64,000 bases of DNA, from contig NC_083571.1 in the NCBI RefSeq assembly GCF_027579695.1, forward strand, positions 84,829,888 through 84,893,887, written 5' to 3'. Of this stretch, positions 6,701-49,400 are shown piece by piece (positions within the stretch are counted from its first letter, which is position 1; each line of letters opens with the position of its first letter). Below the pieces are notes generated by a model. The model saw only the letters and a list, made by a program, of their open reading frames with translations. It searched no databases and was not told the DNA's origin. The position numbers and the translations under genes were made by a program. The stretch comes from Neoarius graeffei (Eukaryota; Chordata; Actinopteri; Siluriformes; Ariidae).

Positions 6701-9700
6701 TCAGTGACTCCTAGCACCTCATTGTCAGGTATGCTCTGAAAGTGCCCCTTGGCCTCAGAAACCCAGTAATTAAAATCCATATTCTGGTTAAAATCATGAA
6801 TTCTGACCCACTGCTCATTAAGCCATCATTTAATCTAGATTCAAATGATAACAGTAAGTCTTCTACAGGTTCATCCACTTACACCACGTCATCTTTGAGT
6901 ACCAAGACCACATCTGCATCAGACCCTCCCAATATCTGTAAGGTGAAACCACAGCAACTGCAGAGTTCAGGAATGTCCAACAACAACTTCTCCCAGCTTG
7001 GCTGTGTACCTTCTCTGTTACCACAGCAACAGCAGCAACAGACCCCACAGGTCTTCGTCTCCCAGTCTGCAGCAGGTAAACTGTTCATTTGGTATGGTTT
7101 TGCCTTCAAACTCATGTCTTGTTCTCCATTGTTCAAAATGTAAGTCCTCTTATTTGGTTGCAGCAGCAGCAAAATACTGGTCCTTGTGGTAGTTCTTTAT
7201 TCTTTCAGTTTCTCAGACTTTACAGTAGTGTTTTTGCTGATGTGTGCGCGCATATGCATGTGCAGGTTCTGCTGCACAAATCCCAGCCTTCTATATGGAC
7301 ACCAGCCATCTGTTTAGCACACCCCATCCTCGCCTGCCTCCTCCCTCTATAGCCCAGCAGCAAGGCTTTCAGCCTGGCCTCTCACAGGTACATCTTGCCC
7401 ACTTATTTTAGTATTTGTACATCCGAGTCCCTCTTGTAACTGCATGTGTTCAGTTATTAATAAATGTAAAAGAAAAGTGGGATTGCTTTGCAGTGTTACC
7501 ATTTTTTTTTCTTTCTCCAAAGCCTTACAAGCTTGTTCATTTTATAGATATATACACACACATTAGGTTTCTAATTGGTGACAGCTAGTGTATTTATCCT
7601 TGGGGTTTATTATTCTCTTAAAGATCTGATGACACGTTTTTGACATCTTTGGCGATGTTTTATAACATAAGTAATTCACAAAGGCGCCTATTTTACAAGT
7701 TATGATGATAAAACGCGGCTATTTGGGCAAATTTGACGGGGCTGCAGCACCCAGGAGACGAATGAGGAGGAGGGGCTATATGACGTCATCGAAAGAATCT
7801 TCCTCCTCACTTACCAGTTTGTTGTTGATGCGACAGGTGTTCAGTTTGTCATTTATTATTATTATTATTATACTTATATATAATTAGTTATTATGCCTTC
7901 GCATTGTGTTGCCGGCTTTTGCTCCAAAACCCACAAGGATGGGGTAAGTTTATTCAAGTTTCCCAGAGATCCCGAGCTGCATGCGAAGTGGGTGAAGCAA
8001 GTCAGGCGCACTCGTGACAAGTGGGAGCCCTCACCAACATCCGTCCTGTGCTCTGAACACTTCGATTTGGGTTGTTTTGACACCCTTCCCAGCTTAACAG
8101 AATCTCTTGGGTGTGCAGTTCAGCACAAACGTGTGTTACTACCATCAGCAGTGCCTACAGTATTCCGGAGGGGGTCTACTAGTAGCTATGCCGGATCCAG
8201 CAGTCGCCTGGATATTTTGCTTCATTCAAGGATAAAACTAAGAAGCCATAAACTAGAAGACGTGCCTGCCAATATTATCCTAAATGTATCACGGATTAGG
8301 CATAGTCGTAAGCTTATTATGTTAGCCGTTTGCATGCTCCATTAGGAACTATGTATTCAGTGTAGCATACGGCTTACATGATATAAGCAGTGTTTACACA
8401 TGCAAGACAACAATACACAATATTAAAATATTGATTCCATAACATTTTGAACAAATACGGGTTGACCTACCAATCCTTGTTATCCAACCTTGTGGTGTTC
8501 GTCAATGCTGGGCTGTCTGCCTGTCCGCTGCCCATCTCTGAGTCGGAGTCGCTGTCAGATTGGTGCACAGTAACAGGTTCAAACCTGTCCGGTTGGATGC
8601 ACCCGTGTTCGTCATCACTAGATTCTTCCGATCTATCCCACTCACAACACAATTCTAGACTCCCAGAAGAGGAAGAGCTAGCACTAGAGAGTTCACCGGC
8701 GTTTTCATGCGCCATTTCCATTGAGTAGAACAGCCAGTGAACCGCAGCGTGTTCTTCCGCTGACGTCACAGCATGGCCGCGAGCCACGGACCCAGTTTTC
8801 TTGCGCTGTGCAATTAAAAGTTGGATATTTGCGTAACAGCTTCTTTTCACGTAATTATAACAGAAATCTAACATGTTTGCCATGTTGTATAGTTTATTTA
8901 AGAAATTGCATAGAGTCATGTTCGTGTCATCAGATCTTTAAAGTTGTATGTACATAATAATTTAAAGTGCAAATATTTCTTTGCATATCCATTGTCTGCA
9001 TTTACAAGATTGCGTTCTGACTGTTGCGTGTGTGTTCCTGTAGCCTACAGCAGTGCAGCAGATTCCTATCCCAATCTACGCCCCTCTCCAGGGTCAGCCA
9101 CAGCACCAGGCTCAGCTCGGCCTCAGCACTGGCCCTCCTGTCTCTCAGCCCCAAGATCTCTTCAGCTCCTCCATGCAGCCCTACAGGTAACCCAAATATA
9201 TTTTTTGCTTTATTTGAACTGGATTTTAAGATTGAGTAACCAGCCTGATTTGTATTTTACATGTTAATCACTCCTTATGTTTGGTCTTTTCCAGGTCCCA
9301 ACAGGCATTCATGCAGAACAGCTTGTCCCAGCCATCTCCCATGATGCTATCGGGGACAACGCTGCACAGCTACCCTGGAGTGCAGCCCCCTGAGCTAGCT
9401 AAGCCCCAGTCCAGCCTGGCTTTCCAGCAAACCTCCAACACACAGCACATCCCCATACTGTTTGAACCACAGCTCAACCAGCCTTCTGGAATGGGTGGCT
9501 CCCAGCTAATCGATACACATCTACTGCAGGTGTGGATTAAATCATAGATTGAGATGTTGAATAATATTTCTAATTCAAGATTAAGAAAGTCAAGTGTGGA
9601 ATGCTGCTTTTTCATGTGTCGCAGCCTTTTGCTTTAACTTGCACTATGATTATTGCAGCGTCAGGGAATGAGTCAGCATTCAAATCTATACTCTGGACAA

Positions 9701-15368: not shown

Positions 15369-16156
15369 TCACTGTTGCTTCCCCAGCCGGATGTCATAAG
15401 ACACCATATAGTAGTTATCCCAGGCAAAAAGCTTCCTCTGAGCTGGGTTGTAGTCGATCATGCTGTTGTAACGGTGCCGATTTTGGAAGGGGACTGCAAT
15501 GGCCTTGCTTTGGCTGGTGGTTGTGTCAAAGCTGTAGTTGACTGTTGTGTTGGGTGAGGCATAGCTGCCCACGGTGTACAGCCTGCCACAGATCATGAAG
15601 GCATTGGCCACTGTGGTTTTCCGAATGTTGGTCTCCCAGCTCTTCTTGACCTCCAGGCTGTGAGGATCCAGCTGGGAGATCACAATGGCACCTTTAGCCT
15701 TGTTGGTGCTGTAGATGACCCAGAGCCCATTCTCATCTACAGCAAAGTCAATGTCTGTGTAGCCACCCCATGAGTAGGGGAACTGGCCATGGAAGCCGGC
15801 ATGTGGAAGTTCTCGGCGGGCAGCAACACTCTCTGATCCTAACTCGTAGCGAATGAGCATACGGCTACGCCGCCGCTGGTAGTAGAGTGAGCCCCGGTAC
15901 ATAACAGCACCTGTACTCTCTACCGCCTCGGGCAAGAGCAGCACTTTGGCTGGAAAGCCACGAGAGAGCTGATCCATATCTTCATAGCCATAGAGTTGGC
16001 GCACCTCTGTGCCAACTGTGTCGATTCGCCACACCATGTTGGAGCCATAAGGGCTCACAGCTTCTGGGTCCTGCATCCACACGCCATACCTACCAGCGAT
16101 GCTGTCTGCCTTACGGTGGGTCACTGGTTCTCCCACCCACAGCAGCTCACCACAGC
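15369..16156 (-). CDS. myoc: myoc exon 3 (olfactomedin domain)
   Basis: 788 bp, acceptor ttctttttcag, from [11 protein letters not shown] through [20 protein letters not shown] to the stop. It encodes nearly the whole propeller domain in one exon, as in other vertebrate MYOC genes. Confidence 0.95.
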
Positions 16157-19100
16157 CTGAAAAAGAACAGAAAGGTTGCAATAAGAACAACAACTGGGGA
16201 ATTCAGACAGTTGTCCAGTGTACCTTCATGGAAGCTGACAACTAGTCCTGTGGTTGAAAGTTGCATACAAATGGTGAAAGACATTATTTGGCAGATGTAG
16301 ACAAGATTGAAATTAGAATGTAGCAAAGTGTGTTTAAAGAGATCACATGCAATGAAGACATGCCACATCATCCTCGAATTCTTGCGAGGGTAAGTGATCG
16401 GGGTATACTTACCCTTTCCTTTTTTAGCCCCTTGCTAAACATACAGCAAGCCCATTTATAAGCTGGGCAGTTTAGGCTCCAAGTACTGTGGTAAAAATAG
16501 CTGTATTTGTTCTTGTCAGCAGAGACAGCAAGACTAATGTGTGCTGTATTTGTGGCATACAAGAAGTACTGGTATTTGGTTTCAGGCAATTGGATTGTGT
16601 CTTGGAGGTGTGTAATTAAAGTCAAGAGTGCCTTTCTGTACCGCTACTGTCTTCAGTGTTCTCTGGTCTTCGGGCAGGAAATTCAGCGACTTCAGCCTTC
16701 AACTCCTGGTATGACGGACTACCAATGGACCAAGAGGGATCTGTAAGAGAACAAGTAAAAGACAAAACAATGAAAACATAAGGTAGAAGAATGGGTAGCA
16801 TCAACCAAGTGTGAAATAGAACAGTATGTAAAACACCTAGGTGAGTGAAGGTAAAGCAGCGAGTGAACATAAGGCAGAAGGTGGGACAGCACTTGGAGAC
16901 CATACACAACTGCTCCATCCCATATCAAGTGTTACACTGATTTACTTAGTATGTGAAGGAATTGTTTGCACTTTTTTGTCATTCTAAGTAAAGAGCGAAG
17001 ATGCTCCCATCTTACAGTGCTCAGCGTAAATGAGTACACCCCCTTTGAAAAGTAACATTTTAAACAATATCTCAATGAACACAATTTCCAAAATGTTGAA
17101 AAGACAAAGTTTAATATAACATCTGTTTAACTTATAACGTGAAAGTAAGGTTAATAATATAAACTTAGATTATACATTTTTCAGTTTTACTCAAATTAGG
17201 GTGGTGCAAAAATGAGTACATCCCACAACAAAAACTACTACATCTAGTACTTTGGCCTCCATGATTTTTAATGACAGCACCAAGTCTTCTAGGCATGGAA
17301 TGAACAAGTTGGCGACATTTTGCAACATCAATCTTTTTCCATTCTTCAACAATGACCTCTTTTAGTGACTGGATGCTGGATGGAGAGTGATGCTCAACTT
17401 GTCTCTTCAGAATTCCCCATAGGTGTTCGATTGGGTTCAGATCATTAGACATACTTGGCCACTGAATCACTTTCACCCTGTTCTTCTTCAGAAATCCAAC
17501 AGTGGCCTTAGATGTGTGTTTAGGATTATTGTCATGTTGGAAAAGTGCACAACAACCAAGGGCATGGAGTGAGGGTAGCATCTTCTCTTTCAGTATAGAG
17601 CAATACATCTGTGAATTCATGATGCCATCAATGAAATGCAGCTCCCCGACACCAGCAGCACTCATGCAGCCCCACATAAGGACACTGCCACCACCATGTT
17701 TCACTGTAGGCACCATGCATTTTTCTTTGTATTCCTCACCTTTGCGACGCCATACAGTTTTGAAGCCATCAGTTCCAAAAACATTTATCTTGGTCTAATC
17801 ACTCCAGAGTATAGAGTCCCAGTAGTCTTCATCTTTGTCAGCATGGGCCCTGGCAAACTCTAGGCAGGCTTTTTTGTGCCTGGGCTTTAGGAGAGGCTTC
17901 TTTCGTGGACGGCATCCATGCATGCCATTCCTCTGCAGTGTACGCCGTATTGTGTCACGGGAAATAGTCACCCCAGTTTGGCTTTCTACTTCTTTAGATA
18001 ACTGCAGTGAACTTGCATGCCGATTTTCTTCAACCCTTCTCATCAGAAGACGCTCCTGTCGAGGTGTTAACTTCCGTGGACACCTGGACGTCTCTGCGAG
18101 ATGGTTGCAGTTCCATCTTTCTTAAATTTTTGTACCACTTTTGCTACAGTATTCTGACTGATAAGTAAAGCTTTGCTGATCTTCTTGTAGCCTTCACCTT
18201 TGTGGTGTAAAGAAATTATTTTCTTTGGGGAATTCTGAAGAGACAAGTTGAGCATCACTCTCCATCCAGCATCCAGTCACTAAAAGAGGTCATTGTTGAA
18301 GAATGGAAAAAGATTGATGTTGCAAAATGTCACCAACTTGTTCATTCCATGCCTAGAAGACTTGGTGCTGTCATTAAAAATCATAGAAGCCATACAAAGT
18401 ACTAGATGTAGTAGTTTTTGTTGTGGGGTGTACTCATTTTTGCACCACCCTAATTTGAGTAAAACTGAAAAATGTATAATCTAAGTTCTAAGTTAAACAG
18501 ATCTTATATTAAACTTTGTCTTTTCAACATTTTGGAAATTGTTTGTGTTCATTGAGATATTGTTTAAAATGTTACTTTTCAAAGGGGGTGTACTCATTTA
18601 CGCTGAGCACTGTAAGTGACATCCATAATTGTCACTTCATTTAAGCTTGGATGGAAGATCCACAAAAGTCCATTACCTCTTAATAATCTATGTAAAAGCT
18701 GTTTGTGAAGAGTCTGAATTCACCTCTCAGATTGCTTGTGTCTCCTTGTGTTCTGCCTGGCCTGGAGACCAGATGAGAGTGGGATGTGCCTATAGGGCAA
18801 AAAGCAAGTCACATTTCCAGATTGAAAAAAAGGACATTTTACACTAACTTGTGTTTTCTTGGTCTCATCTCATCTCATTATCTCTCGCCGCTTTATCCTG
18901 TTCTACAGGGTCGCAGGCAAGCTGGAGCCTATCCCAGCTGACTACGGGCGAAAGGCGGGGTACACCCTGGACAAGTCGCCAGGTCATCACAGGGCTGACA
19001 CATAGACACAGACAACCATTTACACTCACATTCACACCTACGGTCAATTTAGAGTCACCAGTTAACCTAACCTACATGTCTTTGGACTGTGGGGGAAACC

Positions 19101-25736: not shown

Positions 25737-26710
25737 CAAGTCAAGTTTATTTGTATAGCGCTTTTAACAATAAACATTGTCGCAAAGCAGCTTCACAGAA
25801 TTTGAACGACTTAAAATATAAGCTAATTGTATCCCTAATCTATCCCCAATGAGCAAGCCTGTGGCGACGGTGGCAAGGAAAAACTTCCTCAGACAACATG
25901 AGGAAGAAACCTCGAGAGGAACCAGACTCAAAAGGGAACCCATCCTCATTTGGGCAACAACAGACATGGCTATAGCATTAACAGTCCTAACATAAAGTCA
26001 GCTTCATTGATGCTATAAACCCCCCACCAACGGAAACCCGAGCGCAAAACCGTCCAGGACAACCGCAGTCCCAAAGTCAGCAAGTCAACTGCAGCCCTAA
26101 AATCAGCAAGTCAACTGCAGCCCCCAGCCACAAAAGCACCACTGCAAGAGTCCAGAGCATCCTCCAGGCTCGACCCCCAACTGTCCACATGGGGCCGCCC
26201 TCCACAGGAGCGATGCGATGAGACTCCAACCAGACACAGGGCACCAGGATGGATCAGGCAGGTCCGAGGAGCAGAAGAGGTCAGCATCTCGATCCCAGGA
26301 CTGACATGTAACTCAGAGGGACAGATTTTTTTTTGGGGGGGGGGGGGAACCACAGGTTGTTAGGTATGCCCAATGTCACCTGAATAAGTAGGAACAGTAT
26401 ACATATTGCACTGAGTACAAGCAGGGACTCCGGCAACTGACTATGACAGCATAACTAAAAGGGGAGAGCCAGAAGGTAACACAGGCATGAGGGAGCCCCG
26501 GGACATAAAGCAGCAGCCACTATACCATCAACAAACTCGAGTGACGAAGTGAGTGGGGACTAACAGCATCCATACATCCCAGTTTACCAAAACACTCTAT
26601 GCCTGAGGACCCTCCAGATCTACTCCTTTACCTTTAACAAAAGGCTTTCAGCCTAGATATGTTTTCAGTCTAGACTTAAACACTGAGACTGTGTCTGATT
26701 TCCGAACACT
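25737..26710. repeat. Interspersed repeat starting agtcaagtttatttgtatag
   Basis: A long noncoding repeat whose first ~570 bases recur, split by insertions, at 32294-32400 and 39607-40126. Shared phrases include tttatttgtatagcgctttt, gtggcaaggaaaaactt and gaggaaccagactcaaaagg. Family unknown to me. Confidence 0.75.
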
Positions 26711-28744: not shown

Positions 28745-29392
28745 TCACGAGTGCTGCAAAATGAAGCATTGTGTTTTGAAACATTAGTTAGATCCAAACG
28801 ACAAAAATGGTTCCACCAACCAGCTATACATCCCCATGTCACACTGATGCGACCCTACATGCCAGCCAGATCCCTATGCGCCGTTGCTACTGGTTGCCTG
28901 GTCCCTCCTCCTCTCTGCTCCTGCCTAGCCCGCTCAAGACTGCTGTCTGTCCTGGCTCCCTGTTGGTGGAATAACTGTCCCAATGAGGTCAGAACTCCCG
29001 ACTCCCTGACCACCTTCAAGCGCAGACTGAAGACCCACCTCTTCAGGCTGCACTTCTCCCCTGCTTCCCTGTCCACTGTGTAATCACGTAGCTGTCTTAG
29101 CAGTCTTGACCAACCCAGGCTGTGTACTGTCTAGCCTGGGGTTAGCCGTTTAAGTTTTATTTTTCTCTATTGTACTTTGTCAGCTCATTTGTATGGTTGC
29201 CTTGCTTGGCCGTATGCAGGTTGTTGTTACTTCAACAGAATATTACACTAGGTGTTATTCTGTCACTTGTTCATTTGGCACTAGAATTTTCTCGTCTAGA
29301 AGTACAGCACTTCTTGTACCTGACTTTTGCACTTGTTGTATGTCGCTCTGGATAAGAGTGTCTACTAAATGCCTGTAAGGTAATGTAATGTC
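28745..29392 (+). mobile_element. L2-type LINE 3' end
   Basis: Residual ORF2 C-terminus SRLLSVLAPCWWNNCPNEVR, then LTTFKRRLKTHLFRLHF and a stop, followed by a 3' UTR ending in tctggataagagtgtctact and aaatgcctgtaaggtaatg, a tail common to fish L2-like LINEs. The element is heavily 5' truncated. Confidence 0.75.
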
Positions 29393-31189: not shown

Positions 31190-31498
31190 GAGATTACTTA
31201 ACATTAAGAATTATGAATTTCAGCATAAATAAACCATAAGTAATGTTGACTTTTCCATTTTAACCAAAGGTACTGCCATTACCCAAGTTTATTCCATCCA
31301 TATCTAAGAATTGTCCATAAACTAGCATAAATTACAGTATGTTCCTAAATTTAACATTTAATCAGAATTAACTGAACTCCAGTCTGTAGGTGTATAGTTG
31401 AAGGCAGAAGTTTACATACATGGACATGAATGTCATGACAATATTAGGCTTTCAGTTATTTCTTATGACCATTCTTTTTCTGTGGCAGAATGATTGCA

Positions 31499-31878
31499 GG
31501 GCGGCACGGTGGTGTAGTGGTTAGCGCTGTCGCCTCACAGCAAGAAGGTCCTGGGTTCGAGCCCCGGGGCCGGCGAGGGCCTTTCTGTGCGGAGTTTGCA
31601 TGTTCTCCCCGTGTCCGCGTGGGTTTCCTCCGGGTGCTCCGGTTTCCCCCACAGTCCAAAGACATGCAGGTTAGGTTAACTGGTGACTCTAAATTGACCG
31701 TAGGTGTGAATGTGAGTGTGAATGGTTGTCTGTGTCTATGTGTCAGCCCTGTGATGACCTGGCGACTTGTCCAGGGTGTACAAGTCCGCCTTTCGCCCAT
31801 AGTCAGCTGGGATAGGCTCCAGCTTGCCTGCGACCCTGTAGAAGGATAAAGCGGCTAGAGATAATGAGATGAGATGAG
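31499..31878 (+). mobile_element. tRNA-derived SINE, copy 7
   Basis: Inserted in the left arm of the outer Tc1 element; direct repeat aatgattgca (31489-31498, 31879-31888). The body carries a small insertion near 31782 (tacaagtccgcc). Confidence 0.95.
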
Positions 31879-33586
31879 AATGATTGCACAACATACATCT
31901 TTAATAGGAAAAAAAAGTTTTAATTTATTTTGGGTTTTCTGAAACCAACACAGGGTCAAAATTATACATAGACACTCAAAAATATACACACACCCACATA
32001 GATTATTAAGTCAGTGGAGCTGAAAGTTCCAAAATGTCTTTGAACTTGCCACGGCCTCTTAATTTACTGTCTGTGATCATGATTGACTACAGCTGGTAGC
32101 TTCATTTGTGCCAACATAATTTTTTTAAACGGTATTCATTGGATTGACCAACATACAGTACAATGGGAAAGTCCAAGGAGCTCAGTGCAGATCTGAAAAA
32201 GAGAATCACAGCTTTACACTCAGGAATGTCTCTTGGAACCATTTCTAAACATCTACAGATTCCAAGATCATCAGTTCAAACAACTGTATGTAAGTCAAGT
32301 TTATTTGTATAGCGCTTTTAATAACATTGTTGCAAAGCAGCTTTACAGAAAATCAAGGCTTTAAACATGAGCTAATTTTATCCCTAATTTATCCCCAATG
32401 CACATTACTGCCCTTTTTGCTGCTGTTTCCTTGACTGTTTACATCTGGTTACATTGTTTGCACATTACTGCCCTTTTTGCTGCTACAGGTACGTCCGATC
32501 ATTGCCTTATTTTTGCATTACACTACCTACAGTTAGGTCCATATATATTTAGACATTGACACAATTTTTTTTTTTTACCTGTTTACTGAAACATATTCAA
32601 GTTATAGTTATATAATGGACATGGACATAAAGTCCAGACTTTCAGCTTTCATTTGAAGGTATCCACATTAAAAATGGATGAAAGGTTTAGGAGTTTCAGC
32701 TCCTTAACATGTGCCACCTTGTTTTTAAAGGGACCAAAAGTAATTGGACAATTGACTCAAAGGCTATTTCATGGGCAGGTGTGGGCAATTCCTTCGTTAT
32801 GTCATTCTCAATTAAGCAGATAAAAGGCCTGGAATTGATTTGAGGTGTAGTGTTTGCATTTGGAAGATTTTGCTGTGAAGAAAACATGCGGTCAAAGGAG
32901 CTCTCCATGCAGGGCCCTGTACTACGAAGCGGGTTTTCTGGCTTACCAGGGTAACTTCGAGAGTAACTTGATCACGTGCAGCGTAACTTCCTGATTAACC
33001 CATACTACGAAAGTTGGCTATGTTCAAACTGAGGTATGCTGCCATGGCAACTTACGCTGCATCTCAAACCTGCTCGTCTCAGGTTATGTTCTTGGTTAAC
33101 CCGAGGTTTCCGATTAACCACACCCTTTTTAAACACCACCTCTCCACCGACATTTCCTCTAGAGACAATCCCAGCGTACCTGGATGACCCGTGTGATATC
33201 GGAGCGCAGATTAGAGATGGGATTCGGGGGCGTGTCTACGGGGGGCAGGGGTGGGCAGTGCCCACCCTGAGATAAGCCTTGCCCACCCTGATAAATTGGT
33301 TGCCCATCCTATAAAAAACGCCTGTGAATATCATCACAATATGCGTGATTTTGCTCGGAGGTGGCGTCTTGTGTTCTCCTTTAAATCCATTGTGCACTCT
33401 ACTGCTTTCTCATTGGCCATTTCGAAAGGGAAGGGGAGGGGGGGTGCCCTGCCCACCCTATATATAAAAAAAGCTGCGTGCGTGCTCGCTCTACGCACAT
33501 GCGGTAGTAGCAAAGTCAGTGTGTACGGCAGTACTGTAGATTCCAAGTTAATAGTTAACAGTAATACATTGCTTACTTTCCCTTCT

Positions 33587-33962
33587 GGCGGCACGGTGGT
33601 GTAGTGGTTAGCGCTGTCGCCTCACAGCAAGAAGGTCCTGGGTTCGAGCCCCGGGGCCGGCGAGGGCCTTTCTGTGTGGAGTTTGCATGTTCTCCCCGTG
33701 TCCGCGTGGGTTTCCTCCGGGTGCTCCGGTTTCCCCCACAGTCCAAAGACATGCAGGTTAGGTTAACTGGTGACTCTAAATTGACCGTAGGTGTGAATGT
33801 GAGTGTGAATGGTTGTCTGTGTCTATGTGTCAGCCCTGTGATGACCTGGCGACTTGTCCAGGGTGTACCCCGCCTTTCGCCCGTAGTCAGCTGGGATAGG
33901 CTCCAGCTTGCCTGTGACCCTGTAGAAGGATAAAGTGGCTAGAGATAATGAGATGAGATGAG
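33587..33962 (+). mobile_element. tRNA-derived SINE, copy 8
   Basis: Direct repeat actttcccttct (33575-33586, 33963-33974). It lies in the hAT element upstream of its coding part. Confidence 0.95.
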
Positions 33963-34024
33963 ACTTTCCCTTCTGATAGTCATGCATAGGTTTCTCATTA
34001 AAAAGCAGACACCCTCACCCCCCC

Positions 34025-35570
34025 ATGCCCAGCACTTCCTCCGATACTGAGGACGTTTCTCAGCCCAGCACCTCTGCCCTCAACCAAAGTTGCCTCAACA
34101 CCGTGCTAAGCGCTGCATCTTTGTTGGTGGATGCTAACATCGTACATGTCTCTGTTCCCGTTGACGCTAGCACCTCTGCTACAACAGATATTACCGATAA
34201 AGATGCATTGCTCTGCACAAACGTTACAGGCATCTAGTCTTCCGTTCCCCTTGATTTAAACACGGATAGCCCATCTCAGCCCATTCTAAAAATTTATCCA
34301 AAACGCCTTTTTGGCCAAACCTACCGGTCATTTAGTGCAGGCTAGTTTCAGTCACGGCCATGGTTGGAATATTCAGTCTTGCAAGATGCCAGCTTTTGCT
34401 TTGCCTGTCACAAATTTAGTTTAAATTCGGACAACATATTCACCAAACGTGGGTACACTATTGCCACTTTTCCACTACAAACGCGGCTGAGTCGGGCTGA
34501 GCCGTGCCGTGCTGAGTTGGGCTGAGTCGAGCTGAGTGGGGCTGTTGGAGTTGCATTTCGACTACAACCGCGCTGAACCGTGCTGGCTGGAAGTGGGTGG
34601 ACACATTGGGTGGAGTTAGCGAAAGTGGGTGGACGTCAGGTGATGTCGTTAAGCAGCGCAAACAGTGACATCAGTGAGCTTTTAAGCGGTAGTCTCACAA
34701 CCCGGATAGTAAACAATAAACATGGAGGACATGGAGTCGTTAGTGTTGCTGGTCTTGGTGCTGTGGCTTGTTGTCACCGACAACGCCAACAGATACTGGC
34801 AAGAGCGTATAGATGAGGCGAGGCGCATAAGGCTTCAGAAATTCTCGTAATTCGTAATTCTCCTCCTTCCGGGTTTGCGGTGTTTACAGATCCCAGCGTG
34901 CTCGCGGGGCGTGTGTGGGCATGTGAGGACACTCCTCCTCACCAATCAGTGCACAGGGGAGTGTCTGCTCACGCCCCCAGCCTTACTCGGCTCGCTTCAG
35001 CCCCATTCCAAAACCGTGCGAGTTTTAGGGGCTAAGCAGGGCTGAAGCGAGCTGAGTCGTGCTGTTTTTTGGTAGTCGAAACGCGAGCCGTGTCGGGCTG
35101 AAGTGAGCTGAAGCGAGCTGAAGTGAGCTGGAAATGGAGACAAGGTTCTGTCAAAAAAATGTTGACTTAATGAAGGCGACATCATTCCTCCTGCCCAAAT
35201 CTGTGTCTTTTCTTGACCCCTCTCTCCTACAGCCACTTCAAGTGCTTGCAGGCCAGGAACTTAATGATGTGGGCTTACAAAATGAAATTGCTGTGGCAAA
35301 AACAGTGTTAGTCAATAATCTAAGCACAGATGCTAACCTCTCTGAAGTGTGCAAATGCATCCAGCAATACAAGGAGGCCTTCCCCATGCTGCATAAACTG
35401 TATGTCACCGCACTCATCATTGGTGTGTCATCAGCTGCATGTGAAAGCTCTTTTTCTACTCTGACTCGCATTCTCACACCTCTCTGAAGAACAATGCTGC
35501 ATTCAAGGAAGACACATTTAGTCATTCTGGCACATGAAAAACAAATAACAAAGAATTTGGATATGAATTA
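34025..35570 (+). pseudogene. hAT transposase (TTF-finger/ZMYM1-like), interrupted
   Basis: An N-terminal Ser/Thr-rich region (MPSTSSDTEDVSQPSTSALN) is followed, after an in-frame stop at 34235, by a TTF-type zinc-finger segment. This reads RLFGQTYRSFSAG, a stop where Trp is expected, then RPWLEYSVLQDASFCFACHK. The frame is cut at about 34451 by a GC-rich insert. After 35131 the C-terminal part resumes with a dimerisation segment (FPMLHKLYVTALIIGVSSAA, then CESSFSTLTRIL). The RNase H-like catalytic middle is missing. A domesticated ZMYM1-like gene is unlikely given these breaks. Confidence 0.75.
34451..35130. mobile_element. GC-rich MITE-like insert
   Basis: Begins ttgccacttttccactacaa and ends near gctggaaatgg. 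Interior arms carry degenerate gctgagtcgggctgag-type repeats in both directions. It interrupts the hAT zinc-finger frame. Superfamily not determined. Confidence 0.5.
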
Positions 35571-36684
35571 ATTTGTTTTAGAATTTTCCAAATCTAACCA
35601 CAGACTAATACTGTAGATATTCCAGGTTATACACTAGAAACTGATCACTTATCTAACTAGACTGAGAGCAATTTTCCACTATTCTTGTTCTCTAGTAGGT
35701 ATAGTTCTTTAATACACCTATATTGCAGCCTATAAGTTCTGTTTGTATTCATAAAAAAGGGAAAAAAATATTGATATAAAAATGTTCCATTGCTTCTATT
35801 AATCACACAAGTCCATGTAATGACAGGTCCTTTCCTTTTATCACTAGATGCAGATATGGTGCATAATGAAGCCCAACCTTTTTTTCATGTGTCTGTTTTT
35901 TTCATGTTTGACCCTCTGAATGTTTATGTGTGAGTATGGATCTCAACTTACACTACATTCCAAATTATTATGCAAATGACTTTTTTCACTGATTTTCCTG
36001 AAGAGTCAATAGAAATGACAATCGTCCTAATTTTCAAGTCATCAACCGTCAGTGTACAAATCAACTGTTTTTGAACGAACCTTCCAATGTTAACTGTATT
36101 TTTTTAAATTAAAAAAAAACTACAAATGGACTGTTCCAAATTATTACGCAAAATAGAGTTTCAAAAGATTTTTGTTCTTGTAAAGAACTAAAAATGGCCA
36201 TTTGTGAAATTGGAAGCATTAGTAGGTGATAATTACTGGAATCAAAACCTAGTTCAATCAAAACATCTTATAGTTCAAATTGCATTACTGGATTTGTAGC
36301 AGATTCAGAGCCCAGTGGGGCTACCCAACTCCCTGGGGTCAAGCAGATGATGATGGTGAGGACGATGATGATAAAAAGTAGCAAATGTCACAAGAGCAAT
36401 AAACAAAACCTCTTCCAAGCAGTGCAGATTTCCCACCATTATGTTATTTTATCCACTTTGCTTCAACCAATCACCAGCAACTATCATTTAGGAAATCTTT
36501 GTCCTATTAATTTGCTCATACCCGTCTGAATGCGCTATTAATCATGGGAAACACGTCTGATCACGAAAATGGGGGACTTATACACACATACATACACTAC
36601 AATAAGAAATGTAATTTGTTGCCCCCCCAAATAAACCAAATGCCCACCCAAGCATGACATCCTGGCAACGCCTCTGATGGGATT

Positions 36685-37530
36685 TATGGCTCTTTGATGG
36701 GATCCGCATCTTCGTGATCCGTTCTTTGAAAAGAGCCGTTCAAAAGACTGGATCATTTGGCTCTTTTTAAATATTTATTCAGTTTTAAGAAGACAGCGTC
36801 TAAAGAAGCCAGATCCCTCTGGCTTATATTTCTGGACATACCTTTTATATAAAGCAACCTAGACTTACATTATTGTAACCCCTAAACGCTCATAAATAAC
36901 CATTAAAAAACAATGAGGGCTTCAATGAATGTCCATGCAGAACGGCTTTTCTGTAAAAAAAAAAAAGAACCCACTCAAGAACATAGTTATCAAGAACGCA
37001 AGAATATTTTATAGAAAAACACTTGTTTTACAAAAATATTTAAGTCTGAGATATAAAATAGATAACTACAATAAATATAACAAGAACATTTTAATAGAAA
37101 AAAACTTATATTAAAAATATTGAAATTTTAACAAAAATAGATACAACTAAACAGTCAGATAAATAGATAAAGTTATAACAAGAACACAAGATTATTTTAA
37201 TAGGAAAAAACAATTAATGCAAAAAATATTATTAGAAAATAGATACAACTAGACAAACAGATAAATAAATAAAATACACAAAAATAGAACAAACAAAATG
37301 ACGATAGAATAAATTATATGAACGTCCGTGCAAAGTAGTTTTCCCACAATATTATCATTAATATCACACAACTACATTATAAACTATATACAAAACAATT
37401 TGAATTATTAGGCAAACAGATAAAACTTGAATAAATAAAAGGCAAATGCTGTTTAGCCTACTACTTGTCCTTGGGCAAAAGCTTTTTCATCTGAAACACA
37501 GTACAGAAAAAGAACGACACACACACACTT
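36685..37530. other. Interior of the Harbinger element, AT-rich, nothing coded
   Basis: Includes a short inverted phrase (gatccgttctttgaaaagag and similar) at 36690-36760 and long A-rich tracts. No transposase was recognised. Confidence 0.45.
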
Positions 37531-37532
37531 AC

Positions 37533-38025
37533 CATTATGAATGATGTTTTTATATTTCATTTTCACCTGTTGCCAGGTGCGTTTGGCACTGCTGTTGCCT
37601 CTGAAATGTTCACAGGACATACAACTTAGTCAAAGGGACTGAACAGTCAGTCATCCTAATTCATGTGACTCTGTGCACATATCAGCTTAAGTAGGCTACT
37701 CCATGAATTTACTATACCAAATTTTATTCAGGATTTTTCGGACATTAAACAAGCTATATATGACTGGGGCCACATCGAAGGACCATTTTCTGTGACTTGT
37801 GATTGATCATGAAGCTTTCTCTCATCCTATACTTCTGTTCTGGAACATGTAGAAGGGAGAATGTACTTGCGCATTTACCCGATCGGCAATTCGTTGCCAA
37901 CATGCTTGCCGCTCCTTATTGGCAGCCGCTGTGTTAGATTTTGCTCTTAATGTTGTTTTGAACTCCTCGTAGCTTTGCATTATGACAGCGCATTCTTCCT
38001 CCGTGAAGCACGGCGACCGTGCCAT
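37533..38025 (-). CDS. Myb/SANT-like DNA-binding protein of the Harbinger element (partial)
   Basis: Two - strand exons. The first starts at 38025 with MARSPCFTEEECAVIMQSYE and runs through ANKERQACWQRIADRVNA to a donor near 37880. The second, 37600-37533, has a tttcag acceptor and gtaagt donor and encodes RGNSSAKRTWQQVKMKYKN. The order matches the Myb/SANT-like accessory proteins of animal PIF/Harbinger elements, which help the transposase bind DNA and enter the nucleus. Downstream exons were not identified. The exact first donor is uncertain, so joining across the intron is tentative. Confidence 0.65.
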
Positions 38026-38231
38026 TGTGAACAGTGGTGATTTGGCTGATAACCTCCCCTTTAACGTGAACGCGCATTAACCCTGATTAGGTTAAACCAG
38101 GTTCAACAAATCAACTTCATAACTGGCGTCGTAGTACCGTTTAACCCCAAACAAGATAACCAGGTTTTGTCAACCCCGGTTTAGCGGGGGAACCCTGGGT
38201 TACTTCTGGGTAGGTTAACCTCCGTTCGTAG

Positions 38232-39262
38232 TACAGGGCCCAGGTGAAACAAGCCATCCTTAAGCTGCGAAAACAGAAAAAAACAAACCAAGAAATCGCT
38301 ACAATATTAGGAGTGGCAAAATCTACAGTTTGGTACATCCTGAGAAAGAAAGAAAGCACTGGTGAACTCATCAATGCAAAAAGACCTGGACACTCACAGA
38401 AGACAACAGTAGTGGATGATCGCAGAATAATTTCCATGGTGAAGAGAAACCCCTTCACAACAGCCAACCAAGTGAACAACACTCTCCAGGAGGTAGGCGT
38501 ATCAATATCCAAATCTACCATCAAGAGAAGACTGCATGAAAGTAAATACAGAGGGTTCACTGCACGGTGCAAGCCACTCATAAGCCTCAAGAATAAAAAG
38601 GCTAGATTAGACTTTGCTAAAAAAAAAAAAAAAATCTAAAAAAGCCAGCACAGTTCTGGAAGAACATTCTTTGGACAGATGAAACCAAGCTCAACCTCTA
38701 CCAGAATGATGGAAAGAAAAAAGTATGGCAAAGGCGTGGTACAGCTCATGATCCAAAGCATACCACATCATCTGTAAAACACGGCGGAGGCAGTGTGATG
38801 GCTTGGGCATGCATGGTTGCCAGTGGCACTGGGTCACTAGTATTTATTGATGTGGTGACACAGGACAGAAGCAGCCGGATGAATTCTGAGGTATTCAGAG
38901 ACACACTGTGTGCTCAAATCCAGCCAAATGCAGCCAAACTGATTGGTCGGCGTTTCATAATACAGATGGACAATGACCCAAAACATAAAGCCAAAGCAAC
39001 CCAGGAGTTTATGAAAGCAAAGAAGTGGAATATTCTTGAATGGCCAAGTCAGTCACCTGATCTCAACCCAATTGAGCATGCATTTCACTTGTTAAAGACT
39101 AAACTTCAGACAGAAAGGCCCACAAACAAACAGCAACTGAAAACCGCTGCAGTAAAGGCCTGGCAGAGCATTAAAAAGGAGGGGAAACAGTGTCTGGTGA
39201 TGTCCATGAGTTCAAGACTTCAGGCAGTCATTGCCAACAAAGGGTTTTCAACCAAGTATTAG
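38232..39262 (+). pseudogene. Tc1 transposase of the ggtccata-type element
   Basis: Frame 1 opens after the Harbinger insertion: VKQAILKLRKQKKTNQEIAT gives the HTH and SISKSTIKRRLHESKYRGFT the second. It breaks in a poly-A run at 38618-38640. Then WTDETKLNLYQNDGKKKVW, QMDNDPKHKAKATQEF and SPDLNPIEHAF supply the D, D and E positions in DD34E spacing, ending ANKGFSTKY at 39262. The start region is cut off from its 5' sequence by the insertion (32530-32917). One A-tract frameshift is the main coding lesion. Confidence 0.8.
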
Positions 39263-41117
39263 AAATGAACATTTTATTTACAATTATTTAATTTGTCCAA
39301 TTACTTTTGAGCCCCTGAAATGAAGGGATTGTGTTTAAAAAATGCTTCAGTTCCTCACATTTTTATGCAATCATTTTGTTCAACCCACTGAATTAAAGCT
39401 GAAAGTCTGAACTCCAACTGCATCTGAATTGTTTTGTTCACAATTCATTGTGGTAATGTACAGAACCAAAATTAGAAAAATGTTGCCTCTGTCCAACTTC
39501 CACCTATTTATTTATTTGTAAGTGGCATTCATGGTGGACAGCAAACTAAGAACTTCATTGTGCAAGAGGACATGTCCTTACTGTGCATATGACAAACATT
39601 TTGAACTTGAACAATGAGCAAACCCGTAGCGACAGTGGCAAGGAAAAACTCCCTCAGGCGACATGAGGAAGAAACCGTGAGAGGAACCAGACTCAAAAGG
39701 GAACTCATCCTCATTTGGGTGATAACAGATAGTGTGATTATAAATAACCCACTTCTATAACTGTCCTATAGAGTCGCAAAGTATAACTGCGAAAACAGGA
39801 AAATCATAATAGTTTTAACATGAAGTCTCTTTTGTTGAAGTTATAAACTGTTCATTGATGGAAACTTGAGTGCAAAACTGTTTGACAACCACAGTCCTAA
39901 AGTTAGCAAGTCAACTGTAGTCCTCATTCATAAATGTATTACTATAAATGTCCAGAGCCGTCTTCCAAGTGCAACTTTCAACTGTCCATATGGGGCCGTC
40001 CTCCACAGGAGCAATGTGATGAGACTCCAGCCAGACACAGGGCATCAGCATAGATCAGGCAGGTCAGAGGAGCAGAAGAGGTCAGCATCTTACTGGTGTC
40101 TCAGAATCGACATGTATCTCAAGTACATGTGTAAATACAAGTTATTGGGAGGTGTAGACACTTTGCCAAGCCACTTTCTTGGAAGAAGACCCCCAAAGTC
40201 TCCCTCAGATGAGTGGAAATTAGTTTGGATGGTCAGGAACAACCCAGGAACCACCAAGGCACAGGCTTGCCATGAACTGGAAGCTGCTGGATCAGTGTCT
40301 ACAGTCAAGCAAGTTTCACATCGCCATGGCATGAGACTGGTATCCAAGAACGAAGCCCCTGCTCCAAAATTGGTACCCTCAAGCTCAGCTAAAGTTTGCA
40401 GCTAACCACATGGACAGAGTCTTCTGGAGGAAGTTTGAGACGAAGATTGAGGTGCTTGTCCACAATGACCAGAGGAGAGTACCACTGTACCAGTTGTTAA
40501 GCGTGGTGGGGGTAGCATCATGCTCTAGGGCTGTTTTGCTGTCAATGGAACTGGTGCATAGCACAAAGTCAATGACAGAATGACAACACATCAAAGCTGG
40601 TTGTGGAATGGATAAAGCAGACTAACAACAGACAAGTTCAAAACAAGTCCTGGCCTCAACCCAATCGAAAATATGCGGACTGTGCTTAGAAGTCAGGTCC
40701 GTGCCAGGAAACATACAAGTTTAATTGAACTCTACCATTTCTGTCAAGAAGAGTGGTCAAATATCCAACTAGAATTCTGCCAGAAGCTTACTGATGGCTA
40801 CCAAAAGCGTCTGGTCAAGGTGAGACTTGTTAAGGGACGTTTAACTAAATCTTAGGTATGCTGTATGTAACTTTGTTGACTCTGTGTTGATTTCCGAAAA
40901 CCCAAAATAAATTCAAACTTGTGCACCAAATTATTTTTATTTCTTTTAAAGATGTATGGTATACAATCATTCTGCCACAGAAAAAGAACAATTCAAAGAA
41001 ATAGTGCCATGATATTGCCCTGATATTCATGGCCACTTACGGTATGTAAACTTCTGACTGTAACTAATGTAATATAACTATATTTGTCAAGTTGTATACA
41101 TTATACATTTCATATAT

Positions 41118-41330
41118 TAAATACATTACAGGCATTTAGCAGACGCTCTTATCCAGAGCGACGTACAACAAGACCCTGACATACCCACAACAGTGGGCGG
41201 CCCAAGGAACAGTTGGGGGTTCCGTGCCTTGCTCAAGGGCACTTCAGCCATTCCTGTTGGTTCAGGGAATCAAACCGGCAACCTTTTGGTCCCAAAGCTG
41301 CTTCTCTAACCTTTAGAACATGGCTTCCCT
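41118..41330. repeat. Fish interspersed repeat with L2-like tail
   Basis: Starts acaggcatttagcagacgct and continues cttatccagagcgacgtaca, the complement of the LINE tail seen at 29350, followed by gtgccttgctcaagggcact. Probably a short truncated retroposon. Confidence 0.55.
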
Positions 41331-43467: not shown

Positions 43468-46400
43468 CTAGACAGGAAAAGGAGAGAGACAGAAAATAAA
43501 GATAAGTTCGTGGTTTCTTTAGCAGTAGTATATTTATCTGTGAGACTGTATACATACTAATTATAATAAGCAGCAATACGACTATCACTAATGCCACGAT
43601 CATCTTCATCTAAGGAGACAAAGGAGGGGGAAAAAAAAAAAGATTAGTGCTGTTCCGTTTAAATTCAAAAGAAAAATAAAAAGCAAAGTGAATTTCCAAA
43701 GAAATCTAGTAAATATAAAAAGGTATTTATTTCAAAAAAACAGGCTCGGGCTTTAAACAGATGCCTGCTTTACCATATTCTCAATCATTAACTATAAGGT
43801 ATACAGGTTAAATACATTAAAATTAGTTATCATTTATCATGTGCTTAATTTAGTTTTATTGGAACTATCATAAATAACTGTGCCTTTACTTTTAAACAGA
43901 GCATTTTATCAAGTTCATTATTACTTCTACTTGAGAATGTGCGAGTTTTTCCAACACATCCAGGTTTTTTTCCTTTATTTAAAAAAAAAAAAACCTGCCA
44001 GGAATTAGACGACACACCTTTATGTCCCTCCACCACATCCTCCGGTGTAGCTGTTTGGCCCGGCTGCTGAACGCAGATGCATTGTCCGACAGGCTCTCTG
44101 GAAGTCACATGACCAAGAAAAGACCACTGAAGAACTCTTCAGACATGTGTCCACTGAATTACAGGACATGGTTATGCAACACACCCCTTTTAAGTATTTA
44201 TTAATAAAATCAGGACTCCGAACAAGTTGAACCTGCCAAAAAAAACCTGGTGCAAGTGATGACCGTCCTGCCCATCCCACTACACCTGGATGAGCTGTAG
44301 AACATCAGGCTAGACTGATGTGGAAAGAATTAAGAGAGACTTGACTCTCTTTTTCAAACACACACACCCCCCTAACTTATGTAACAGCCCTACTGAGATC
44401 ACGATTACTGGCCCAGACTGTCTCCAGGGAATGCTTGTTCAAATTCACTGGGCAGAGAAGGCTTGGCTTCGTCTTTTTGTCTGGAATTCTCAATGATTCC
44501 TGTTTACAAGCATCCCAATAATGATAGTAAATTTAAAGACACGTTGTCAGGCCATGTTTCGCTCCACTCTCATGCTCAGTAATGGTCCGACATCATCTCT
44601 TGAAGTTCACACTCATTATTCCATTTGACGTTCTCTTTTTAATGACGGTAGAAAATGAGAATTCCAAAGACGGACGCAAAGCCAAGCAGTCTGCCACCAG
44701 GGGATGTCTGCTGATATTCACTGTGCCTGCTGTGACGGCTAACAGGTACAGGTATAAACAACAAGATCAAAACAAGCAGCAGACAGGCAACTTTTCCTTC
44801 ACCGAAGGCCAAGTACGATTATCTGAACAAGTCCACACAGCACTGCTGAGGCAAAGCAGCATTCTTGCTCAGTCTGTGACTGGTTGAAAGACAGAACTAA
44901 ATATTTATACACAATTGAAGCTTAGACCTGTTCAAACATTGAAGGTGTTCAGAAAAAGGAAGCATTAACGTTTGTTTATAGATGACTGACTCATCTGAGT
45001 ATATGCTCACCACATTGTGGCCACATTATTAGGTACACCCATCCACCTGCTGTTTGATGCAGTTCTCTAATCAGCCAATCCCTTGGCAGCACAACGCATA
45101 AAATCACAGATACAAATCAAGAGCTTTAGTTAATGTTCACTTCAAAACATCAGAATGGGAAATATTGTGATTTCTGTAACTTTCGCTGTAGCATAGGTGT
45201 TGGTGCCAGATGAACTGGTTTGAGTATTTCAGAAACCGCTGATCTCCTGAGGTTTTCACACACAACAGTCTCTAGGAGTTTGGTATGAATGGTGTGAAAG
45301 ACAAAAAACATTGAGTGAGCGACAGTTCTGTGGGTGGAAACAAATGTCTTGTTGATAAGACAGTTCGGAGGAAAATGGCCAGATTGGTTTGAGCTGCTAG
45401 GAAGGATAAAGCAACCCATAGCAACTCTTTACAACCATGGTGAGCAGAAAAGCATCTCAGCATGCAACAGCAGAAGACCACATTGGGTTCCACTCCTGCA
45501 GTCAAGAACAGGAATCTTAGAATCAAGAACAAGTTCCTACTAAAGTGGCCAGTGAGTGTATGATGTAAAAAAAAAAATAATAAAGACTTGCGATAAGCAT
45601 TTGGTTAATGAACGCAGCAAGTTATCGCAAAAAAAAAAAAAAAGCGGGAATTACAACCCTGATTCCAAAAAAGTTGGGACAAAGTACAAATTGTAAATAA
45701 AAACGGAATGCAATAATTTACAAATCTCAAAAACTGATATTGTACCCACAATAGAACATAGACAACATGTCAAATATCGAAAGTGAGACATTTTATGCCA
45801 AATATTGGCTCATTTGAAATTTCATGACAGCAACACATCTCAAAAAAGTTGGGACAGGGGCAATAAGAGGCTGGAAAAGTTAAAGGTACAAAAAAGGAAC
45901 AGCTGGAGGACCAAACTGCAACTCATTAGGTCAATTGGCAATAGGTCATTAACATGACTGGGTATAAAAAGAGCATCTTGGAGTGGCAGCGGCTCTCAGA
46001 AGTAAAGATGGGAAGAGGATCACCAATCCCCCTAATTCTGCGCCGACAAATAGTGGAGCAATATCAGAAAGGAGTTCGACAGTGTAAAATTGCAAAGAGT
46101 TTGAACATATCATCTACAGTGCATAATATCATCAAAAGATTCAGAGAATCTGGAAGAATCTCTGTGCGTAAGGGTCAAGGCCGGAAAACCATACTGGGTG
46201 CCCGTGATCTTCAGGCCCTTAGATGGCACTGCATCACATACAGGCATGCTTCTGTATTGGAAATCACAAAATGGGCTCAGGAATATTTCCAGAGAACATT
46301 ATCTGTGAGCACAATTCACCGTGCCATCCACCGTTGCCAGCTAAAACTCTATAGTTCAAAGAAGAAGCCGTATCTAAACATGATCCAGAAGCGCAGACGT

Positions 46401-49400
46401 CTTCTCTGGGCCAAGGCTCATTTAAAATGGACTGTGGCAAAGTAGAAAACTGTTCTGCGGTCAGACGAATCAAAATTTGAAGTTCTTTATGGAAATCAGG
46501 GACGCCGTGTCATTCGGACTAAAGAGGAGAAGGACGACCCAAGTTGTTATCAGCGCTCAGTTCAGAAGCCTGCATCTCTAATTGTATGGGGTTGCATTAG
46601 TGCATGTGGCATGGGCAGCTTACACATCTGGAAAGACACCATCAATGCTGAAAGGTATATCCAGGTTCTAGAGCAACATATGCTCCCATCCAGACGATGT
46701 CTCTTTCAGGGAAGACCTTGCATTTTCCAACATGACAATGCCAAACCACATACTGCATCAATTACAGCATCATGGCTGCGTAGAAGAAGGGTCCGGGTAC
46801 TGAACTGGCCAGCCTGCAGTCCAGATCTTTCACCCATAGAAAACATTTGGCGCATCATAAAACGGAAGATACAACAAAAAAGACCTAAGACAGTTGAGCA
46901 ACTAGAATTCTACATTAGACAAGAATGGATTAACATTCCTATCCCTAAACTTGAGCAACTTGTCTCCTCAGTCCCCAGACGTTTACAGACTGTTGTAAAG
47001 AGAAAAGGGGATGTCTCACAGTGGTAAACATGGCCTTGTCCCAACTTTGAGATGTGTTGCCATCATGAAATTTAAAAATCACCTAATTTTTCTCTTTAAA
47101 TGATACATTTTCTCAGTTTAAACATTTGATATGTCATCTATGTTCTATTCTGAATAAAATATGGAATTTTGAAACTTCCACATCATTGCATTCCGTTTTT
47201 ATTTACAATTTGTACTTTGTCCCAACTTTTTTGGAATCGGGGTTGTATATTAAGTCATTCTTTTTGGCCTGGCATTACACAAGATGTGGGTTGATGCCAG
47301 TTTATGTTCTTTAAACAACATATATAAATGTATGTGAGTAACAACACACCTTGGCACATGATGAACTGTGCCAATGAGTGAGTGAGTTACAAGCCATATT
47401 GTTATTTGCATATAAACAACATAATATTATTATGACAGTTTGGTAGCATTTGACTTGAAAAATAGCTTCGTGAATCATACCACTGCAGTAATCATGTAAA
47501 GGTGTAGGATACAGAAGAATATTACTGGACAATGAACATACGAGCTGGAACAATGACTTGATATGATTCAAGTGTAAATGAACGCCTAAGCCAGAGCGGC
47601 ACAGTGGTTAACACTGTCGTCTCACAGCAAGAAGATTCTGGGTTCGAGCCCAGCGGCCGACGGCTGCCTTTCTGTGTGGAGTTTGCATGTTGTCTGCGTG
47701 GGTTTCCTCCAGGTGCTCCGGTTTCCCTCACAGTCCAAAGACATGCAGGTTAGGCTATTTAGTGGTTCTAAATTGACCGTAGGTGTGAATGTGAGTGTGA
47801 ATGGTTGTCTGTGTCTATGTGTCAGCCCTGCAATGACCTGGCGACTTGTCCAGGGTGTACCCCGCCTTTCGCCCATAGTCAGCTGGGGTAGGCTCCAGCT
47901 TGCCTGCGACCCTGTAGAACAGGATAAAGCGGCTTAGGCATCCATCCCTCATCCATAACTGCTTATCCTATATAAGCAGTTATGGATGATGGATGGATGC
48001 CTAAGCCACTTTGTAGAAAGTATAATCTTACCAATTTGTCCAAGGAATGAATTTCGATTATGATCTGTGACTTTCTAATGCTTACATATTTTACTTCTTG
48101 TCCAAACTACAGAAGTCTGAACTGCAGGAAGGTAATAGGCTCATCATGACTTTTTGTATGTACACTGCTTCTTATTGTTTGATGAGAAAAGCATATGGTC
48201 TTTACCCATCTGTTAGGTAGATTATATACCTATATCCCTCTGGTTGCTGTATGGACTGTTCTGTGTTCCTTTAAGCCAATATTTCATAGTGATATCTGTT
48301 CTGAATGTGATGCAATGATCATATGAGATCGCTTCACCCGTCACAGCTATTTATGTATAGCAGGACAAGAGTGTGTGCTGTATGGTGTAAGAGAGCAAAC
48401 AGCACTTTTAAATCACTTAACAAATAATTATTTTGGTAATGATAATTGTAAAGTGATACATATGGCACTTCACTGGAGGACCATTTAATTTTTTTGGTCA
48501 AATTTTCAGCTTTTCCCCCCCTCTCTTTTGGCCTAAAATTGCCTTTCTCCCCCCACTATTTCCAGCGGCATCCCAAATAAACAGACTTAACCAATACTTG
48601 TCTAAATTTTAGCTAATCAAAAGGTACATTAATACACTTTATTTCAGATTAATGAACTCAAAACATTCATTTACTTTGACAAAATGAAGTCCCAAAATTG
48701 AGACGAGAACATTGGCCAAACAATTACATGACATTAGGGGTAAGAGCTGAGATGCAAAAGCAACTGTGAATCATTTTTGATTCATGTTAGTTGGCTCATC
48801 TGCTCTTTTTTTATTGGGGGGGAAAAAAAGAAAACGCTTTTGGTCCATTTTTAAAAGATAACTTGCCGGCACACTCTGATCTTAAAATGCAGATCTCTTA
48901 TGCAAAATGCATCAAGGATGGCAGGTTTGCTCCAAGTTATTTACATCAAGAGCTCCTGAGATACTCAATCCTTTCCGAATGCTTTGGCTCTGTGTTCCAC
49001 AGAAACAACAACTCCTTTGAGCGGTATACCGCAAACATCTATTGAAATGCAAACCAAGGGTACTGAAGCAGGATATGTAATCAGTTTGCACCAGGAGTGA
49101 CACATGGCTGTCTCATATAACCTAGATCAGTGTTTCCTAAGCCACAAATGTTTGCCCTTTCCCAGAATAATTATACTGCTATTCAGTGTTGTTTGGTCCA
49201 AGCATGTTGGAAGCTGGAAGGGAGCCCCTGTGGACTATATTGAGAAACTCTTCCCTAGATACACATTTAAGAGTAGATTCAAATCACTTAAAATACTAAC
49301 CGACGCCAGCTGTGTCTGAAAAATTTACAAAATGCGTCTTAGGAGGAAAACGGTGAATAAATTGTGGCACGGTGGTGTAGTGGTTAGCACTGTCGCCTTA

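Follow-up and report, generated by a model that had tools for sequence, protein, structure and literature searches.

A seven-level nest of nine mobile-element insertions in the genome of the catfish Neoarius graeffei

Interruption analysis (PMC2517846), in which the order of insertions is derived from their nesting, has reportedly been used to rank the ages of mobile elements. The same use of nesting order to rank insertion ages is found in the parts covered of the papers on REANNOTATE (PMC2672092) and TinT (PMC3014933). In the channel catfish, the covered parts of the repeat analysis give Tc1/mariner as the largest repeat category with 19.9% of the repeatome and hAT/Ac with 3.0% (PMC5953449). 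The present analysis concerns a nest of mobile elements in Neoarius graeffei, contained in a stretch of 64,000 nucleotides (contig NC_083571.1, positions 84,829,888 to 84,893,887), referred to as the window. Positions 31395-41060 of the window (about 9.7 kb) hold nine mobile-element insertions on seven levels. From the outside in, the order is a Sleeping Beauty-type Tc1, two further repeats designated L2 and L3, a second Tc1, a PIF/Harbinger element, a hAT element and, both within the hAT, a short interspersed element (SINE) and a GC-rich miniature inverted-repeat transposable element (MITE). An extra SINE within the outer Tc1 (31499-31876, level 2) forms a side branch off the main stack.

Boundaries and uninterrupted relatives

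The first-pass annotation of this DNA had proposed a nest seven deep, and this is confirmed, with every level present and in the order claimed. It had also held that removal of a layer rejoins the host beneath, and had proposed that the inserts be deleted and the rejoined hosts aligned to other genomic copies. Against the assembly to which the window belongs (2.34 Gb, 38 contigs; the search for relatives scores the best candidates only), the rejoined hosts do align over the insertion sites. The fetched relatives that span an insertion site number 28/29 for L2, 23/33 for the outer Tc1, 6/6 for the second Tc1 and 7/7 for Harbinger, with one fuller copy for hAT. These uninterrupted relatives and the terminal inverted repeats of the outer Tc1, which with the SINE removed reach a score of 130 where the best of 200 shuffles has 27, place the structure beyond chance. 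Flanking duplications were read directly from the sequence for the outer Tc1, L2, L3, Harbinger, hAT and the inner SINE; the statement that each boundary can be read does not extend to the right ends of the second Tc1 and the GC-rich insert. The remaining ends shift by 1-7 bases from the coordinates first given.

The outer Tc1 (31395-41060, on the plus strand like all elements described below except Harbinger) has its own sequence at 31395-31498, 31889-32293 and 40135-41060, with the target TA at 31393-31394 and 41061-41062. The Pfam domain HTH_SB was found above its cut-off at 32163-32297 (8.4e-17) and DDE_3 under its cut-off (0.02), and 40127-40402 matches the Sleeping Beauty entry PDB 5unk (E 0.00085). 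Seven stop codons interrupt the frame in the 3' part. Ten of the 23 loci spanning the L2 site are gapless within 8 bases and 13 have 2-8 gap columns; locus L065 reads TGTATGTAAATACAAG, identical to the rejoined nest, and others nearly so.

L2 (32294-40129; own sequence 32294-32400 and 39612-40129) is flanked by the duplication TGTAA at 32289-32293 and 40130-40134. The L2 set held 32 loci, three of them the nest itself, which leaves 29 relatives. Among those that cross the L3 site, 22 are gapless within 10 bases and the rest have 1-11 gap columns. A second, uninterrupted copy of L2 in the window (25738-26289) has an empty L3 site with a single CAATG. In the nest this duplication flanks L3 (32401-39611; own sequence 32401-32529 and 39497-39611) at 32396-32400 and 39612-39616. 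Relatives of L3 carry both halves; five were fetched and aligned, against 116 rows listed. By class, L2 would be an interspersed repeat and L3 a retroposon-like 3' tail.

The second Tc1 (32530-39496; own sequence 32530-32912 and 38244-39496) has its left TA at 32528-32529, and its right edge is missing. It carries the domains DDE_3 (9.8e-18) and HTH_Tnp_Tc3_2 (3e-23) and matches PDB 5cr4 (SB100X; E 6.4e-46). With Harbinger removed, the transposase frame is continuous and free of stops, except for one shift at a run of A. No confirmed relative of the Tc1 transposase was found in viral contigs or in bacterial and archaeal genomes. The six relatives, fetched from 39 other listed places, are all contiguous at the Harbinger site and extend 18-19 bp past the point where the nest copy stops on the right. 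Five of them (L080-L084) could be read at both ends, and each is flanked by TA on the left and on the right.

This right end had been placed at 39505, but it lies at 39496 and the bases that follow match L3. In four L3 relatives (L075-L078) there are 90-101 bp, TA included, from the point of Tc1 entry to the place at which the nest picks up again, which in L076 reads CTTCCACCTATTTATT as in the nest. Most likely, the second Tc1 lost its right edge by deletion together with these 90-101 bp of its L3 target, since one deletion over the edge accounts both for the gap in L3 and for the extra 18-19 bp of the Tc1 relatives. The two losses would then be a single event. A candidate end at 39504 with a right TA was dropped, the TA at 39505-39506 being L3's own on the deletion reading. 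An edge deletion can therefore imitate a clean boundary, as it did at 39505.

The PIF/Harbinger element (32913-38240, minus strand) is a 1.87-kb copy with its own sequence at 32913-33224 and 36685-38240, perfect terminal repeats of 16 bp and the 3-bp duplication CAG at 32910-32912 and 38241-38243. A Myb-like domain is found on the minus strand at 37825-38025 (Myb_DNA-bind_5, 3.4e-10). Seven relatives were fetched, against 42 other rows listed, and each has a 3-bp duplication of its own (CTG, CAG or CGG). All seven are uninterrupted at the hAT site, where ATGGGATT is found once, as opposed to on both sides of the hAT in the nest. The repeat of GATGGGAT to the right of the hAT was considered as an excision footprint and ruled out, the arrangement being common to all seven relatives (two with one base changed).

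The hAT element (33225-36676) is internally deleted, with its own sequence at 33225-33586, 33975-34461 and about 35129-36676. The 8-bp duplication ATGGGATT lies at 33217-33224 and 36677-36684, and the C-terminal dimerisation domain Dimer_Tnp_hAT was found (6.9e-08). Several stops occur in the frames read. The terminal inverted repeats give a local score of 18 against a shuffle maximum of 24, and an end-anchored score of 8, equal to the shuffle maximum. For the right part two relatives were fetched, against 43 other rows, and for the left part one, so the comparisons below are made without a hAT consensus. The fuller relative, on contig C5, has an 8-bp duplication GTCGGTTG, a single CTTTCCCTTCT at the SINE site and no MITE. 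In the nest, CTTTCCCTTCT is found at 33576-33586 and again at 33964-33974, on either side of the inner SINE (33587-33963).

The GC-rich MITE (34462-35137) has a left target TAT, which is TAA in the hAT relative, and its right end is missing. At the left junction the fuller hAT reads ACACTAATTGG, which makes TAA the probable site of entry of the MITE into the hAT. The boundary claimed for this insert did not hold on the right, where there is no duplication and where the end of the MITE and 2,085 bp of hAT (C5 10527263-10529347) are missing, presumably through one deletion after insertion. The right junction falls in 35129-35137, a 9-base overlap common to the hAT and some MITE copies. The MITE family gave 1291 first-look candidates, and identity is 95-97% for the 39 other copies scored. 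Two complete copies are flanked by TAA left and right, and their ends are similar. The ends of the nest copy alone, the right one being lost, score 21 against a shuffle maximum of 22. That the GC-rich piece is mere filler of a deletion is ruled out by the complete copies flanked by TAA and by the TAA at the site in the hAT relative.

Divergence and the order of insertion

The locus is best explained as a neutral pile of successive insertions, with a probability of roughly 95%. A Sleeping Beauty-type Tc1 would first have inserted at a TA, followed in turn by L2, L3, the second Tc1, Harbinger and hAT, each within the latest arrival. The SINE and the MITE, which is Harbinger-like, would then have entered the hAT, and a separate SINE the outer Tc1. 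Later, deletions would have cost the second Tc1 its right edge, together with some of L3, and the MITE its right end, together with the 2,085 bp of hAT. Which enzyme moved each layer is presumed, as is the neutrality of the insertions.

Divergence was taken as substitutions relative to the consensus of relatives (for Harbinger, the relatives' majority), with 95% intervals. It was 119/1233 = 9.7% (8.1-11.4) for the outer Tc1 against a consensus of 24, 30/606 = 5.0% (3.4-7.0) for L2 against a consensus of 29, 17/235 = 7.2% (4.3-11.3) for L3 against 5, 31/1623 = 1.9% (1.3-2.7) for the second Tc1 against 6, 16/1867 = 0.86% (0.49-1.39) for Harbinger against 7 relatives and 4/377 = 1.1% (0.3-2.7) for the inner SINE against a consensus of 6. 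In the hAT's right part, the changes found in the nest alone, by comparison with two relatives, came to 5/1544 = 0.32% (0.11-0.75). The outer Tc1 consensus kept 24 of the 33 loci after a coverage filter and retained one poorly aligned relative (leave-one-out 0.448). The consensus sizes are small for L3, the second Tc1, Harbinger and the SINE, and the SINE consensus was made from six of seven loci fetched with a query containing the outer SINE. The outer SINE itself differs at 1/375 sites.

Level and divergence are negatively correlated over the seven layers (Spearman -0.86, p = 0.014, with the right part of the hAT; about -0.82, calculated by hand, with the pairwise hAT value of 22/2390). The four outer levels are well apart from the inner ones, and L3 and L2 overlap. 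The inward fall of divergence that had been predicted was thus found overall, from outer to inner layers, but not among the three innermost levels. Harbinger, hAT and SINE are not separable by divergence, and their order is therefore taken from the nesting alone. In leave-one-out comparisons of L3 and of the second Tc1, the divergence of the nest copy exceeds the mean of the other copies, and for L2 it is close to that mean; the nest Harbinger is the most diverged among the Harbinger copies (0.86% vs 0.37-0.69%). Stop codons are no clock here, with seven in the outer Tc1, none in the second Tc1 and several in the younger hAT.

Several observations weigh against a simple succession of insertions dated by divergence. 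The target of the outer Tc1 was never seen empty, and in one L2 relative (L018) some 560 bp of other sequence break the element close to the L3 site. Judged by divergence, L3 seems to predate L2, and the SINE seems to predate the hAT's right part, with overlapping intervals in both pairs. The relatives listed are those most like the nest, so each consensus is biased towards the nest copy, and a cut-and-paste copy can bear changes that predate its arrival. The fifth L3 relative, L072, is without the roughly 100 bp called deleted, ACACTACC running directly into TATTTATT. Were the nest's L3 of this type, the TA at 39505-39506 might belong to the duplication of the Tc1 itself, and the eight bases CTTCCACC would have to have come from elsewhere; the deletion is preferred. 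Further points of this kind are the uneven divergence of L3, with 14/123 sites on the left and 3/112 on the right (p = 0.011), the left being short variable repeats, and that of the hAT. Compared with the C5 copy, the hAT differs at 16/846 sites (1.9%; 9 of CpG type) in the left part and at 6/1544 in the right part (p = 0.0004). This mismatch means that no single age can be given for the hAT, which as a whole (22/2390) is no less diverged than Harbinger. The difference could come from CpG content or from a mixed origin. Divergence from the C5 copy is roughly fivefold higher in the left part (33225-34460) than in the right part (35132-36676).

The uneven hAT also bears on whether some inner layers moved as a unit, for example a hAT that already carried its SINE and MITE. 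The hAT might have acquired the MITE and the deletion before its arrival, and the SINE and MITE sites were read in a single fuller hAT relative. Such a composite arrival is nevertheless unlikely, because the hAT is absent from all seven fetched Harbinger copies and Harbinger from all six fetched copies of the second Tc1. At 40 scored places, moreover, the right junction between MITE and hAT is spanned once, in the nest, with 11 places matching just the MITE side and 28 just the hAT side.

Far less probable still is a mosaic, produced without nested insertion by misassembly, recombination or gene conversion between repeats. All parts of the locus are repeats, two junctions are not clean insertions, and the hAT and L3 are unevenly diverged, as a mosaic might be. 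It is opposed by the exact flanking duplications at nested positions and by the single-copy target in uninterrupted relatives. In addition, four of the five hosts tested have no significant difference in divergence between their left and right parts.

The SINE within the outer Tc1

The SINE at 31499-31876 was overlooked in the first-pass annotation. It is flanked by AGAATGATTGCA at 31487-31498 and 31877-31888 and is 97.9% identical to the inner SINE; the target duplications of the two differ in length (12 and 11 bp, respectively). Its site is spanned by 29 of the 33 Tc1 loci, in some of them by way of the repeat's inverted copy. Both SINEs may be akin to the transfer RNA (tRNA) SINEs of fish. 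ARAGORN, which finds intact genes, gave no tRNA in 31400-34100, and Rfam, likewise a search for intact genes, gave nothing relevant for the SINEs and two matches at chance level. The SINE pattern was not found in viral contigs, nor the SINE word in the papers searched. Ten more full or partial SINE copies lie in the window, at 18862, 20260, 20711, 22043, 28197, 30828, 47603, 49366, 49767 and 62922, with 82.9-97.3% identity to the nest SINEs.

Four more loci (L002-L005) have a SINE at the identical base of the Tc1 repeat. This, and the 5' junction that L002 shares with the nest, would be expected if a SINE-bearing Tc1 had been copied around the genome, so that the SINE predates the arrival of the Tc1 at this locus. 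Inheritance of this kind is improbable, because the other three loci (L003, L004 and L005) have different 5' junctions, and because likeness to the inner SINE is 96.8-99.5% for the SINEs, against 86.5-90.7% in the alignments of SINE plus Tc1. In L005 the SINE has no duplication.

A tentative alternative, judged somewhat less probable than even, is that the SINE machinery repeatedly chooses one nucleotide, CAG^AATGATTG, in the Tc1 inverted repeat. The choice would probably be due to the likeness of the target to the GATGA tail of the SINE. The exact junction pattern has 13 instances genome-wide, including L002-L005, against 0 for the reversed control; junctions at two other positions of the Tc1 repeat gave 0 and 1, word frequencies not being normalised. 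The independence of the insertions at the shared base was assessed on four loci. No SINE was found at that base in the 29 Tc1 loci (L040-L068) fetched with a SINE-free query, four of which (L044, L046, L048 and L068) have SINEs at other places within or next to the Tc1. If the repeated choice is real, parallel insertions at the same base are common, and a shared site of SINE in Tc1 is by itself no proof of common descent.

Surroundings and comparison with known nests

To the left of the nest, an olfactomedin domain is encoded on the minus strand at 15369-16202, and the open reading frame (ORF) at 23871-24644 matches coiled-coil families only under their cut-offs. Together these resemble myocilin. 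The nest lies upstream of this myocilin-like gene, and no gene was identified to its right among the ORFs scanned; the nest is likely intergenic. Tc1-type transposase stretches with DDE_3 are also found at 17165-17794 (minus strand) and 45945-47027 (plus strand, in two adjacent open frames), and an ORF with a THAP domain at 7884-8342 (plus strand, 5e-16). Positions 41122-41172, just to the right of the nest, and 29332-29382 form a short pair of inverted copies, 92% identical, that belong to another repeat.

The nest ranks the activity of element families in one lineage, from an old Sleeping Beauty-type Tc1 through L2 and L3 and the second Tc1 to Harbinger, hAT and SINE close together, and it can be used to calibrate automated nesting tools. 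Interruption analysis, REANNOTATE and TinT, the latter two as far as their papers were covered, treat many insertions across genomes, whereas here a single locus was analysed and its sites were checked against uninterrupted copies. No individual nested locus is described in the parts covered of the study on channel catfish repeats (PMC5953449). Literature searches on nested elements and on hot spots of SINE insertion gave mainly works of a general nature. As in the nested retrotransposon stacks of maize, in the portion covered of their description (PMC2773423), the oldest element is basal and the younger ones lie inside. The maize stacks consist mostly of nested long terminal repeat (LTR) retrotransposons, whereas this nest mixes Tc1, Harbinger, hAT, SINE and two other repeats. 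The use of nests as relative clocks is established practice, and this nest is a new, deep and well-verified example of a known structure.

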